A stretch of 64,000 nucleotides of DNA from Nitrospinaceae bacterium (GTDB lineage: Bacteria; Nitrospinota; Nitrospinia; Nitrospinales; VA-1). Below are positions 12,893 to 22,219 of this stretch, one piece after another. Within the stretch, counting starts at the first letter, position 1. The number at the start of each line of letters is the position of its first letter. A program made the position numbers and the translations under genes. The notes below the pieces were generated by a model. That model was not told the origin of the DNA, did not search any database, and was given only the letters and a program-made list of their open reading frames with translations. The DNA lies in NCBI GenBank assembly GCA_021604505.1, contig BQJC01000001.1, forward strand, positions 558,001-622,000. The letters are read 5' to 3'.

Positions 12893-13048
12893 GATAAACC
12901 TACTATAATAAAATCAATTGTTGCAATCCTATTTTTGATAAAATTTCCGGATTGGTGAACCAAAAGCATCCGGCGGTTTTGGAAGGCTTTGCCTTCCTGT
13001 CCGCTCTCTCTTTCGCCCATTGCAACCGGCTTCAAGAAGGAGGTTATG

Positions 13049-13564
13049 ATGAGAATCAAAGTATTGGTTTTAGGAGTATTGCTTTTCCTGATCCATTCTT
13101 CTGTCGTTTTTGCCAAGCAGGAGTTGATGCTTTCTAAAGAACAACTCTTTGATACGGGTCCCGCGATAGACGATCGATCCAGGGATTGCGATCAGCTTTA
13201 TTACGTCGATTCCGGCGAGGATATCGCCGATATGCGGCGGGATTTTGCTTATTATTTTTGCGAGGGAATGTACACCCTGACCCTCGATGGTCCTCCGGGC
13301 ACAACGGTGACGCTTTTTGGAAGTTTTGCTTATAATCAGGAACGAGGCTATCTGGTGTTGCGCAAAAAGGATGACCAGAAGATCTGGTTGCTGGAGTTGG
13401 AGGAGTTTCCGGGCCACCAATGGTCCACCGTCGAAGCAAATTCCAAATCCGGGGCCTATGAAGCGTATTATTATCCGGCCCCTAATTTTCGCCGCAACGT
13501 ATCCTCCATAAAGTGGGGGCAGTGGTGGCCGGACAGCGGTCCAGGGAGTCCGAAGGGCCGGTAA
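13049..13564 (+). CDS. Secreted hypothetical protein
   Basis: A protein of about 171 residues with signal peptide MRIKVLVLGVLLFLIHSSVVFA. The strong AAGGAGG box at 13037-13043 best fits the second of two tandem ATGs (13049); the frame runs further upstream without support. The mature part has two cysteines (SRDCDQLYY and YYFCEGMYT), likely a disulfide. A beta-rich region (TVTLFGSFAYNQERGYLVLR) and a Trp-rich C-terminus (IKWGQWWPDS) follow. I recognise no family. The radical SAM gene starts only 22 bases after its stop, so the three + strand genes here may form one unit ending at the terminator at 16161. Confidence 0.8.
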   Translation: MRIKVLVLGVLLFLIHSSVVFAKQELMLSKEQLFDTGPAIDDRSRDCDQLYYVDSGEDIADMRRDFAYYFCEGMYTLTLDGPPGTTVTLFGSFAYNQERGYLVLRKKDDQKIWLLELEEFPGHQWSTVEANSKSGAYEAYYYPAPNFRRNVSSIKWGQWWPDSGPGSPKGR

Positions 13565-13586: not shown

Positions 13587-14450
13587 ATGAAGGTCAATGA
13601 ATTTCATTGCAAAACCATACTCACGCGCACTTCCGGTTACTTAAAACCGGTGAGTTCGCATTCCCTGAACCCGTATGTAGGGTGCGGGTTTGGGCGCTCT
13701 GCCTGCGGCGAGGGTTGTTATGTACGCTTCAATCAATGGCTCGTCAAGGGAAGGGAATGGGGGAGGTTTATCGATGTCAAAACCAATGCGGATGAAGTTT
13801 ATTTGCGCACCGTAGAAAAGGAAAGAAGCTGGGCGCAAAAAAATCGGGGTTCCTTTTCGATTTTTTTCTCCAGTTCGACGGACCCCTGGCAGCCGGTGGA
13901 AAAAAAATTCCGCGTGACCCGCCGGTTGCTGGAAGCCATGCACCAGGCTCCGCCAGATCAGTTGACCCTGCAAACGCATTCCGCATCTCTTTTGGACGAT
14001 GTGGAACGGATTCAAACTCTGTCCCGGTTATGTGATCTTCGTGTGCACCTGTCCATTGAAGGGGACCGGGACCGTTTGGACGGTTTGCCGCCGCCGCCCT
14101 GCCCACTGGAGGAGAGAATGGATGCCCTCAAACAACTTTCGGATTCGGGAATTTCAACGGTGGCCTGCCTTTCGCCGCTTTACCCCATGATCGCTCCAGA
14201 GGCTTTTTTTTTCCGTTTGTCCGAGATGGGAATCACGGCGGTGGTGATCGATCATTTTATTCAAGGCGACGGCACCCCGGACGGTTCCAGAACCATGAAA
14301 ACCAAACTGCCGGAAGCCATGGCCGAAACGGCGCAGGAATCGCTCGATTTATCCTACCGCGATGCCATTGCTCGGATTGCCATAAAGTATTTGCCGGTGG
14401 GTATTTCCGCATCAGGGTTTGCCGGCCACTACAGCGGACCCGTGCAATGA
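13587..14450 (+). CDS. SPL-family radical SAM protein with CX6CX3C cluster motif
   Basis: A 287-residue radical SAM enzyme related to spore photoproduct lyase and 'DNA repair photolyase' proteins. The entry NPYVGC leads into the cluster cysteines C33, C40 and C44 (GCGFGRSACGEGCY). This gives CX6CX3C instead of the canonical CX3CX2C, although the aromatic residue after the last Cys is kept. Downstream are the family segments FFSSSTDPWQPVEKKF and LTLQTHSASLLDD. I recall related proteins with the same GCxFGxSxCGxGCY pattern, so the spacing is probably a genuine subfamily rather than decay. Substrate is unknown; a nucleic-acid lesion is one possibility. Its stop overlaps the ATPase start (ATGA), implying translational coupling. 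Confidence 0.85.
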   Translation: MKVNEFHCKTILTRTSGYLKPVSSHSLNPYVGCGFGRSACGEGCYVRFNQWLVKGREWGRFIDVKTNADEVYLRTVEKERSWAQKNRGSFSIFFSSSTDPWQPVEKKFRVTRRLLEAMHQAPPDQLTLQTHSASLLDDVERIQTLSRLCDLRVHLSIEGDRDRLDGLPPPPCPLEERMDALKQLSDSGISTVACLSPLYPMIAPEAFFFRLSEMGITAVVIDHFIQGDGTPDGSRTMKTKLPEAMAETAQESLDLSYRDAIARIAIKYLPVGISASGFAGHYSGPVQ

Positions 14451-16150
14451 GCCTCGAGGTACCCGAGTCGCTTCAGGCCCTGTTGCTGTCGGTCGATGGC
14501 CGGGGGTATAAGGCCTATAAAATTCTGCAGGGCAAATCTTTTCCATTTCCCCCTTTCGAGGTTGTGTTCGAGCATGTCCAGGGGGACCCTTTTGCCTTCC
14601 CTTCGCGCATTTCGGTGGCCGTTGACCTGACCCAGGCAGGATTTTCTAAATCGTTCTATGAGACGAAATTGAAGCGGTTGGCGTTTGAAGATCATTTGCT
14701 CAGGGTTTTGCATGAGAATATCGGTAAAACGCGCGTGAAGATACGCGGTTCCGGAAAGAGTGGGCAGGTCCGGGTTCAGGTTCCCAGCCAAAAAGTCTTG
14801 AAACGCAGTGCGGTTATCATCGAGGGCAATCGGCTCCAATGCATCGTGTTTGCCGGTCTGCCCGCTGAGGGGCGGACGATTTTGGCAAAAGAATGTCTGC
14901 GGTTGTTTTCGGAGGTATTATCGCCTCTTTGGACTCAATCCCTTTTAGCCTCCTCTCTCGATTTGTCCTGCCTTCAGCGTTCCCTTGACACTCTTGCGGA
15001 TCACACTGCTCTGCAGGCAGAGCTGGAAAAAAGAAACTGGGTGGGATTTGTCGCAAACGGTTCCCTGTTGCCGCGCGAATCCGGCGTCAGCGATAAACCC
15101 CTTATCCAGGGCGGGATAGAATTTGAAGCGCCGGAAGGGTTGTCGGAAGTGGTGGACCTTCCCCATTCCGGCCGGGTTGCCGGAATGCCCATCCCCAGGG
15201 GAATCACTCTCGTCGTCGGCGGCGGGTTCCACGGCAAGAGCACCTTATTGAGAGCGTTGCAGCATGCGGTGTATCCTCATGTGGCGGGGGATGGCCGGGA
15301 AAGGGTCGCTACCCTGAATTCCGCGGTTAAAATCCGCGCCGAAGACGGCCGGGCGGTCCGCGGGGTGGATGTCTCAGGGTTCATGAATCGTCTGCCAGGG
15401 GTCGAATCCACTCAAAACTTTTCCACCCAGTTCGCCAGCGGCTCCACCTCGCAGGCTGTGAACATCCTGGAAGCCCTGGAAGCGGGCTCCGGGTTTCTTT
15501 TGCTGGATGAGGACACCTGCGCGACCAACTTCATGATCCGTGATGCCAGGATGCAGGCATTGACCGCCGCCGACAAGGAACCGATCACTCCTTTTATCGA
15601 CCGTGTGGGCGAGATCCATGACCGCCTGGGTATCAGCACTCTGCTAGTGATGGGGGGAAGCGGCGATTATTTTTCGCCGGCGCACCAGGTGATTGCCATG
15701 GAAGCATTCAAACCCCGTTTGGTGACCTCTGAGGCTAAACGAATCGCACAGGACGCCCGTCCAGGACAGAGGAGAAATGAAACGTCTTTTCCCTTTCAGC
15801 AGGTGGTTTCCCGGCGGATCGATCCAAAAATACTAAATTTCAGGCGTGGAAGAAAAGATTGTGTGATTCAGACTCAGGGCCTCCTGGCGCTCACTTTTGG
15901 GGTGACAGAAGTGGACACCCGCTATGTGGAACAACTGGTTGAAGAGGGCCAACTGGAAACCTGCGGGTGGATTTTGAAACGCTTGCGGGATGGGTTGCAG
16001 ACAGAGGCAGAGACCAATATCGGAGGGATTCAGAAGATTTACGAAGAGATCGATGAGAACGGGTGGGGTGCACTTACGCCTTACAATAACGGGCTTTTAG
16101 CCCTTCCCCGCACTCAGGATGTCTTAGCGGTTCTCAACCGAATTCGTTGA
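14447..16150 (+). CDS. ABC-class ATPase of the COG3044/PF09818 family
   Basis: A 567-residue soluble ATPase. Walker A is GGGFHGKS at about 258-265, an ABC-type signature SGSTSQ lies near 331-336, and Walker B is FLLLDEDTCATNF near 350-362. The N-terminal 240 residues contain the family-specific region with KIRGSGKSG near residue 97-105. The structurally studied relative is the trypanosome RNA-editing factor MRB1590, which binds RNA through a pore in an ABC fold. An RNA- or DNA-related role is therefore reasonable by family knowledge. It has no membrane domain, so it is not a transporter. It is coupled to the radical SAM gene by a four-base overlap and followed by a strong terminator, so the two proteins likely act together. 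Confidence 0.88.
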   Translation: MSLEVPESLQALLLSVDGRGYKAYKILQGKSFPFPPFEVVFEHVQGDPFAFPSRISVAVDLTQAGFSKSFYETKLKRLAFEDHLLRVLHENIGKTRVKIRGSGKSGQVRVQVPSQKVLKRSAVIIEGNRLQCIVFAGLPAEGRTILAKECLRLFSEVLSPLWTQSLLASSLDLSCLQRSLDTLADHTALQAELEKRNWVGFVANGSLLPRESGVSDKPLIQGGIEFEAPEGLSEVVDLPHSGRVAGMPIPRGITLVVGGGFHGKSTLLRALQHAVYPHVAGDGRERVATLNSAVKIRAEDGRAVRGVDVSGFMNRLPGVESTQNFSTQFASGSTSQAVNILEALEAGSGFLLLDEDTCATNFMIRDARMQALTAADKEPITPFIDRVGEIHDRLGISTLLVMGGSGDYFSPAHQVIAMEAFKPRLVTSEAKRIAQDARPGQRRNETSFPFQQVVSRRIDPKILNFRRGRKDCVIQTQGLLALTFGVTEVDTRYVEQLVEEGQLETCGWILKRLRDGLQTEAETNIGGIQKIYEEIDENGWGALTPYNNGLLALPRTQDVLAVLNRIR

Positions 16151-16160
16151 TTGGGAAAAA

Positions 16161-16206
16161 GAAAACCCTCTTTGCCTTGCCACAGGCGAAGAGGGTTTTC
16201 TTTTAT
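16161..16206. terminator. Strong bidirectional rho-independent terminator
   Basis: GAAAACCCTCTT-GCCT pairs with AGGC-AAGAGGGTTTTC, a long nearly perfect stem with a T-rich tail on the right (TCTTTTATC) and an A-rich run on the left. It ends the radical SAM/ATPase operon on the + strand and could also terminate the minus-strand small gene at 16228-16395. Confidence 0.9.
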
Positions 16207-20083: not shown

Positions 20084-22219
20084 TCAGATGATGTTCAAAA
20101 GACTCAGTTTGTCGCCAAGGTATTGATGCATGGTTTGTTTGAGGTCCTGATGTTCGGGGTTTTCCAGGCGCGGGTCTCGGTCAATCAGATTAAAAGCTTC
20201 CTTTCTTGCCGATTCTAGAATTTTGATATCGCGGATCAGGTTTCCGACCCTGAGAAGGGGCATGCCGGATTGACGGGTTCCCATGAAATCCCCCGGACCG
20301 CGGATTTTAAGATCCTCTTCGGCGATCGCGAAACCGTCGTTGGATTTTTGAATGGCCTCCAAACGCGCCTTGCCATCTCCGGACTGGGAAGGGTAGGCGA
20401 TCAGCAGGCATTGCGAAGCGTGCCGGCCCCGTCCCACCCGGCCGCGAAGCTGGTGCAACTGGGAAAGCCCGAATCGTTCCGCATGCTCAATGATCATCAG
20501 CGTGGCGTTAGGCACGTCGATTCCCACTTCGATGACCGTGGTGGCGACCAGGACGTGGATCTCGCCTTTCAGGAAGTCGGTCATGATCTGCTGGCGTTCC
20601 TCTTTCTTCATTTTTCCGTGAATCAGGCGGATGGTCAGGTCGGGGAAATAATCCTTTTGCAGGGACTCCTGCACCTCCATCGCGGTTTTCAAATCCAGGG
20701 TTTCAGACTCCTCGATGAGCGGGCAAACCACAAACCCCTGCCGGCCTTTATCCGCTTCCTGGCGTAAGACGGCATAGGCCTGGCTGCGTTTAGCCGAGGA
20801 GAAGATCCGGGTGGCAATGGGTTGTCTGCCGGGCGGAAATTCGTCCAGAAAAGAAACATCCATCTCGCCATACAAAGTGAGGGCCAGCGACCGGGGAATC
20901 GGGGTGGCGGTCATGACCAGAATATGCGGATGGCCGCCTTTTTTGCCGATGGCTTCTCTTTGCAGCACGCCGAATCGGTGCTGCTCGTCAATGACGGCTA
21001 ACCCCAGTTTATGAAATTGGATGGTTTTCTGGATGAGGGCGTGTGTGCCAACGATGATCTGTATGTTCCCTGCTTCAATCTTTTGCTGAATGGTTTTTTT
21101 TTCCTTGGCGGACAAAGCGCTGGTCACAAGCTCAATGGATATTCCCAGTTGCTGGCAAAACGGCTGGATGTTTAGAAAATGCTGTTCGGCCAAGATTTCC
21201 GTCGGGACCATCAAGGCGGCCTGGGACTGGTTCTCCACCGCGGTAAGAAGGGAGATCAGGGCCACCACTGTTTTTCCGCTTCCCACATCGCCTTGAATGA
21301 GGCGGTTCATCGGTTGGTTCAATTCCAGGTCGTCCATGATCTCACCCAGGATTCGCTTTTGTGCCTGAGTGAGCTCAAATTTCAGAAGCTTCATGAACTT
21401 TCGGATCAGAGGGCCGCGGGTTGTGAATGCTTTTGAAATGCTTTTGGGTTTATGAATGAAATTTCTTTTAAAGGCGAGTCCCAGTTGGATGAGAAAAAAT
21501 TCTTCAAAGATCAGTCGCATTTGTGCCGGAGTGCGAAAACGGTCGAGGTCTTTGATAGAGACATCCTTCGAAGGCAAATGCACCTGCAAAACCGCCTGGG
21601 TTCTGGATGGGAATTTGTGCCGCCGGAGGATTTCCTGCGGAAGAATTTCCTTTTCTAAACCGGCATACGCTTCGGCCACCCGACTCAGGATCGCCCTCAG
21701 GATCTTTACGGGAAGTCCCTCCGTCGAGTGGTAAATGGGAATGATTTTGCCAAGCTCCGCAGAATCTTTACCATCCACTTCAGCGGGTTCCATATCCGGG
21801 TGGATGATTTCCAGGCCTGTTCCGAGGCGTTTGTTCGATTCTGCTTTACCGGACAGGATGGCGAAGGAGCCGATGGGATATTTTGCCAGCATGTAGGGTT
21901 CATGAAATCGAAACCATTTTGCCGGAATACTCCCGGTCTCATCTTTGATCAGCATTTCCAGGATTTTTTTTCGCCGGCCAATGCGTTGCGTTTCGGCAAT
22001 GACGATTTGCCCAAGGAAGGTGACTCTTTCGCCGGGCACAAGATCCGCTATTTTCTTGACCAGGGTCCGGTCTTCATAGCGGAAGGGAAGAAAGAACAGA
22101 CAATCTTCGATACTTTTGAGACCGATTTTTTCGAGCAGAATAGCCCGTTTCGGTCCCACTCCTTTGATGTATTGTAGCGGATCGTCGAGAGATAGTTTTT
22201 TCGTTGGAGTTTCTTTCAT
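20084..22219 (-). CDS. recG: ATP-dependent DNA helicase RecG
   Basis: A 711-residue superfamily 2 helicase that reverses stalled forks and processes branched DNA. The N-terminal wedge/OB domain starts near residue 15 (DDPLQYIKGVGPKRA), as in other RecG proteins. Helicase motifs are present in order: QGDVGSGKT (I), PTEILAEQHF (Ia), VIDEQHRFG (II, DEQH), VMTATPIPRSLALT (III), then IEVGIDVPNATLMI (V) and LRGRVGRG (VI). The TRG-like C-terminal region follows (DLKIRGPGDFMGTRQSG). Length matches the family. With ruvCAB at 52 kb the window carries two branch-migration systems. Confidence 0.97.
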   Translation of the reverse strand: MKETPTKKLSLDDPLQYIKGVGPKRAILLEKIGLKSIEDCLFFLPFRYEDRTLVKKIADLVPGERVTFLGQIVIAETQRIGRRKKILEMLIKDETGSIPAKWFRFHEPYMLAKYPIGSFAILSGKAESNKRLGTGLEIIHPDMEPAEVDGKDSAELGKIIPIYHSTEGLPVKILRAILSRVAEAYAGLEKEILPQEILRRHKFPSRTQAVLQVHLPSKDVSIKDLDRFRTPAQMRLIFEEFFLIQLGLAFKRNFIHKPKSISKAFTTRGPLIRKFMKLLKFELTQAQKRILGEIMDDLELNQPMNRLIQGDVGSGKTVVALISLLTAVENQSQAALMVPTEILAEQHFLNIQPFCQQLGISIELVTSALSAKEKKTIQQKIEAGNIQIIVGTHALIQKTIQFHKLGLAVIDEQHRFGVLQREAIGKKGGHPHILVMTATPIPRSLALTLYGEMDVSFLDEFPPGRQPIATRIFSSAKRSQAYAVLRQEADKGRQGFVVCPLIEESETLDLKTAMEVQESLQKDYFPDLTIRLIHGKMKKEERQQIMTDFLKGEIHVLVATTVIEVGIDVPNATLMIIEHAERFGLSQLHQLRGRVGRGRHASQCLLIAYPSQSGDGKARLEAIQKSNDGFAIAEEDLKIRGPGDFMGTRQSGMPLLRVGNLIRDIKILESARKEAFNLIDRDPRLENPEHQDLKQTMHQYLGDKLSLLNII

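Follow-up and report, generated by a model that had tools for sequence, protein, structure and literature searches.

A gene in the window, the 64,000-nucleotide stretch of a Nitrospinaceae genome that we analysed, encodes a radical SAM enzyme (rSAM) whose candidate cluster cysteines follow a CX6CX3C spacing that appears, from alignments and a tree, to have arisen once. The adjoining gene encodes a COG3044 ABC-class ATPase, which serves as an optional partner of the rSAM in a single order. We propose, with about an even chance of being right, that the rSAM is a cluster-binding radical enzyme that reverses or modifies a DNA lesion, with the ATPase as an accessory. The host is a marine, nitrite-oxidising bacterium of the Nitrospinota.

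The locus and its two genes

The features of the locus are collected in Table 1. The two reading frames overlap by the four bases ATGA at 14447, and the terminator that follows them contains a hairpin (16166-16195) and a T run, with a folding energy of -34.8 kcal/mol (z = -6.4) that none of 200 shuffles equalled. An earlier reading of this DNA, made from the sequence only, had claimed the four-base overlap and a strong shared terminator, and both are present. The ATPase is presumably made from the same transcript as the rSAM. The gene for a small secreted protein is often, although not always, found directly 5' of the rSAM across the order and may come first in the transcript. Both proteins are under purifying selection, with a dN/dS of about 0.10-0.14 when the rSAM is compared with copies in the same genus, and of 0.11-0.19 in two close ATPase pairs taken from other genomes in the family. 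A RecG-like helicase gene (20084-22219) lies on the other strand about 4 kb downstream, in a neighbourhood conserved in many relatives.

Table 1 Features of the rSAM-ATPase locus and candidate LexA boxes; positions without a prefix are those of the window.
Feature	Position	Strand	Basis or remark
CX6CX3C radical SAM enzyme (rSAM), 287 aa, SPL-like, COG1533-type	13587..14450	+	ORF, profiles, alignments, predicted fold
Cys33-to-Cys44 codons, CX6CX3C cluster motif	13683..13718	+	sequence; invariant in 52 homologues
Ser96 codon, place of SPL H-atom donor Cys140	13872..13874	+	profile alignment to SPL; invariant in the homologues aligned
COG3044 ABC-class ATPase, 567 aa; Walker A aa 258-266, signature ASGSTSQ at 330, Walker B at 351	14447..16150	+	Pfam, homology
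Intrinsic terminator common to rSAM and ATPase	16162..16206	+	folding vs shuffles
Small secreted protein, no Pfam match	13046..13564	+	ends 22 bp upstream of rSAM
Candidate LexA box, lexA (L192/L212)	G000:C2:53196-53216		
Candidate LexA box, start of DnaE2-like polymerase gene (L213)	G000:C1:1585302-1585322		

The ATPase is recognised by the Pfam profiles ABC_N, ABC_ATPase and MRB1590_C, each above its cut-off, carries Walker A, Walker B and signature motifs, and aligns over nearly its whole length with the Vibrio protein 5d6a and with MRB1590 of T. brucei. The sequence-only reading had placed it in this family. Its Arg143, aligned with the pore residue Arg199, is an arginine in 41 of 41 homologues; the next residue is variable (Thr144 here).

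COG1533 proteins have been reported to be SOS-regulated in several species (PMC8565304). The candidate LexA box of Nitrospinota, TTTTCG-N5-TTTTCGC-N-TA, is a direct repeat over a -35/-10-like promoter and precedes lexA in 12 of 15 genomes. In this genome, a search allowing one mismatch gave just one more copy, that at the DnaE2-like polymerase gene. SOS control of the rSAM-ATPase operon was considered and set aside, as no copy of this putative box lies near the operon.

The cluster motif and the predicted fold

Cys33, Cys40 and Cys44 of the rSAM stand in the context GC-GFGRSA-C-GEG-CY. All three are invariant in 35/35 first homologues, and the CX6CX3C spacing is kept in 52 of 52 rows of the wider alignment, which covers at least three phyla and in which other cysteines vary while the triad stays fixed. 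These 52 homologues confirm the non-canonical spacing that had been claimed for the protein. Among 392 Planctomycetota genomes, 20 encode close rSAM homologues (E up to 2e-60), all 20 with CX6CX3C. The weaker matches at the loci retrieved (L091-L100 and later relatives) are canonical CX3CX2C proteins. A sample of about 384 genomes from across the domain added two carriers, one of which is the sole genome of its phylum in that sample.

On a tree of 52 CX6CX3C and 20 CX3CX2C proteins the spacing changes a single time (support 100/99), a result that was kept when the motif columns were removed from the alignment. The first and second cysteines are three residues further apart than in the sister clade, and the second and third are one residue further apart.

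The rSAM scores 19.9 bits against Pfam PF04055, under the cut-off of 29.5. This shortfall is partly due to the altered loop, which lowers detection and leaves the fold assignment unaffected. Its best curated NCBIfam matches are PA0069 (74.6 bits), mobile pair B (mob_pairB, 74.2) and Rv2578c (53.2), yet these values lie far under the cut-offs (53-75 vs 360-430 bits), and by such profiles the rSAM appears to belong to no curated family. Searching the PDB by sequence, with the rSAM by itself or with a narrow family, gave nothing useful; a broad family profile recovered SPL (E 5e-5).

A first AlphaFold model, built from 6 sequences, had a pLDDT of 62 and an unreliable cluster loop. The second, from 28 sequences with canonical relatives added, reached a pLDDT of 86 and a pTM of 0.86. 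It predicts a radical SAM barrel with a short helix (39-42) in the cluster loop, a region of comparatively low confidence (block pLDDT about 69-79). In a Foldseek search with this second model the best-ranked matches were radical SAM enzymes, with SPL structures 4fhf and 4fhg on top (E about 1e-6, TM 0.64), in agreement with the SPL-like character proposed earlier. Among the motifs of the barrel, S-I-E and TDP are retained. The profile alignment places the invariant Ser96 at the position of SPL Cys140, indicating that the rSAM is SPL-like in fold and not an SPL.

Distribution and genomic context

Within the order, the ATPase gene lies immediately downstream of the rSAM (-4 to 79 bp) in 32 of the 47 genomes that carry the rSAM, the ATPase being decayed or truncated in two of the 32. 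Thus, the adjacency is not peculiar to this genome. The ATPase adjoins the rSAM in all 32 order genomes that have it and occurs elsewhere in none; order genomes without a full rSAM have no ATPase. The association is significant (Fisher p = 8e-7) with genomes treated as independent despite their kinship.

On the other hand, 15 of the 47 rSAM genomes have no ATPase, and the four other genomes of the same genus that were searched all carry the rSAM without it. In several ATPase-less genomes an M1 peptidase or FKBP gene follows directly 3' of the rSAM. The same genes flank the ATPase in other genomes of the order, and the absence is therefore not merely missing sequence. ATPase remnants were not found in the ATPase-less relatives except in two cases: G026, which keeps the rSAM and only 77 residues of the ATPase, and G022 (L131, G022:C19), where the ATPase is multiply broken and both genes contain several stop codons, a joint decay. 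From this distribution, the ATPase seems to need the rSAM, whereas the rSAM seems able to do without the ATPase.

The Planctomycete genomes with CX6CX3C contain no ATPase of this family (PF09818 in 0/20). PF09818 occurs in 27 of the 392 genomes, and the test (Fisher p = 0.38) indicates no rSAM-ATPase association there. Since the rSAM is found without the ATPase in these 20 genomes as well as in the 15 of the order, the two do not form an obligate two-part machine. Co-occurrence, which the sequence-only reading had put forward for survey together with gene fusion, thus holds in the order and does not extend to the Planctomycete carriers, and no fusion was accepted. The one candidate, a frame of 1579 aa in L169, resembles a high-GC frame that is open ahead of the ATPase.

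Outside the order the CX6CX3C gene stands mostly alone. Among the loci examined, no member was found in a repair operon and no metabolic neighbour recurred; in Planctomycetes, where gene calls are crude, neither the rSAM nor the ATPase has a conserved neighbour. Neighbours seen in single cases include a NADAR-domain gene (PF08719) within a few bases 3' of the rSAM in an uncultured Pirellula (L034:5965-7318), a methylthioadenosine phosphorylase-like gene 57 bp after the rSAM on its reading strand (L119:4738-5628), and a gene for a lysine-rich YjbR-domain protein (PF04237) about 30 bp after a Planctomycete rSAM (L105:5088-5582). A methylthioadenosine phosphorylase could recycle 5'-deoxyadenosine.

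The nearest canonical (CX3CX2C) clade on the tree consists of COG1533 rSAMs in DNA-alkylation repair operons (L210, L211, L214-L243). In the one order surveyed, all 30 top sister-clade loci, which are close relatives, have a same-strand Ada gene ahead of the rSAM, either immediately or separated from it by Ogt; 13 of 20 more divergent loci have an alkylation-repair gene (Ada, Ogt, DNA glycosylase or Oxygenase-NA) within 3 kb. The arrangement Ada-Ogt-rSAM or Ada-rSAM has short overlaps at L210 and L211, and on a Staphylococcus saprophyticus plasmid the genes for Oxygenase-NA, rSAM, an HhH-GPD glycosylase, Ada and Ogt adjoin. Pfam searches confirmed the identities of the Ada, Ogt, HhH-GPD and Oxygenase-NA genes.

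A sister-clade rSAM lies directly behind PriA in three related genomes, and on a Runella plasmid a more distant relative overlaps a UvrD-like helicase gene. Canonical COG1533 rSAM genes are, in our collection, a regular member of Ada-Ogt-(Oxygenase-NA) operons (L210, L211, L214-L243, L244-L262, L068), for which our literature search found no functional study or paper. The motif D-x-[FY]-xx-GDG...G-x-R-T is present in 50 of 52 CX6CX3C proteins and in 8 of 8 sister-clade rows, and in no other outgroup aligned.

Interpretation and comparison with known systems

The Ada operons of the sister clade and the motif common to both clades favour a radical repair or modification of damaged DNA, a reading that we prefer and that has its main, indirect support in the sister clade and the fold. 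The reported SOS regulation of COG1533 proteins, the constant adjacency of the ATPase to the rSAM in the order and the ATP-dependent action of KRBP72/MRB1590 also count in its favour. The cytoplasmic rSAM would bind a [4Fe-4S] cluster via Cys33, Cys40 and Cys44 and cleave SAM to give a 5'-deoxyadenosyl radical. This radical would undo or modify a DNA lesion, in the manner of SPL on the spore photoproduct; the lesion would be a different one, most likely an alkyl or other base adduct. The N-terminal pore of the ATPase may bind or remodel nucleic acid and so expose the substrate to the rSAM, an accessory function that many lineages lack. The sequence-only reading had proposed a nucleic-acid-handling module of the two proteins: its repair or modification side gains from the sister operons and the SPL fold, while its two-part side does not stand as an obligate arrangement. 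Against DNA repair we count that no CX6CX3C member was seen in a repair operon, the lack of a candidate LexA box nearby, the identity of only about 38% between the rSAM and its Ada-linked sister, and the fact that the only characterised relative of the ATPase acts on RNA. The adjacency of the two genes may, moreover, reflect co-expression only.

For RNA to be edited beyond a stem-loop, this relative, KRBP72/MRB1590, must be active as an ATPase, stable RNA binding being dispensable (PMC11754742). Its need for ATPase activity, its RNA binding through the N-domain pore and the invariance of the arginine at the pore Arg199 position speak for a rival in which structured RNA is modified or repaired by the rSAM and unwound by the ATPase, in the way that KRBP72 acts on A6 mRNA. 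We consider this unlikely, as the best fold match and the sister-clade operons point to DNA, the second pore arginine is not conserved, and 15 of the 47 rSAM genomes of the order do without the ATPase.

In a rather unlikely alternative, the rSAM would make or clean up a small molecule, nucleotide or peptide, with the ATPase merely co-transcribed. The versatility of radical SAM enzymes, the solitary Planctomycete gene and single cases of NADAR (L034), MurA-like and methylthioadenosine phosphorylase-like neighbours are consistent with such a role; the lack of a recurrent metabolic neighbour, the tie of the sister clade to DNA repair and an ATPase never apart from the rSAM in the order argue against it. 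We regard it as very improbable that the three cysteines bind zinc or nothing in a non-catalytic radical SAM relative: the unusual spacing and the lower pLDDT of the loop would fit, but the triad is fixed across phyla where other cysteines vary, and the barrel motifs are retained.

Returning to radical DNA repair, we tentatively suggest, while thinking it somewhat improbable in its full extent, that the CX6CX3C proteins form a new class of radical SAM enzymes for nucleic-acid repair, with a cluster loop and a lesion of their own. They would be kin to the undescribed Ada-operon rSAMs and served in nitrite-oxidising Nitrospinota by an ATP-driven, substrate-presenting partner. Such proteins are missed at the standard Pfam cut-off. 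Through the Ada link, a large group of unnamed SPL-like proteins acquires a candidate role in a radical route that may serve DNA repair after alkylation or nitrosative damage. To the bacterial COG3044 family, whose role our literature search did not find described, the pairing supplies a concrete candidate partner.

Compared with known systems, the best fold match is SplB (PDB 4fhc-4fhg), which like the rSAM has a radical SAM barrel with an N-terminal cluster motif. The two differ in spacing (CX3CX2C in SPL), in the H-donor cysteine (Cys140/141) replaced here by Ser96, and in sequence, with only 12-13% identity. The Ada-operon COG1533 rSAMs have the D-x-[FY]-xx-GDG...G-x-R-T motif in common with the rSAM; in contrast to the CX6CX3C clade, they are canonical and sit inside alkylation-repair operons. 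The ATPase resembles Vibrio 5d6a and MRB1590/KRBP72 in full-length homology, the three Pfam domains, the Walker and signature motifs and Arg199. It differs from these in its operon with an rSAM, in the non-conserved Arg200, and in a host with no known RNA editing system.

The term CX6CX3C did not occur among the open-access papers searched. Non-canonical radical SAM motifs are known from ThiC (CX2CX4C), HmdB (CX5CX2C), QueE (CX14CX2C) and PhnJ, which combine altered cysteine spacing, as in our rSAM, with radical SAM chemistry; QueE retains a canonical site by means of an extended loop (PMC4389238). CX6CX3C matches none of these four motifs and, as a conserved spacing of apparently single origin, would extend this short list of cluster sites.
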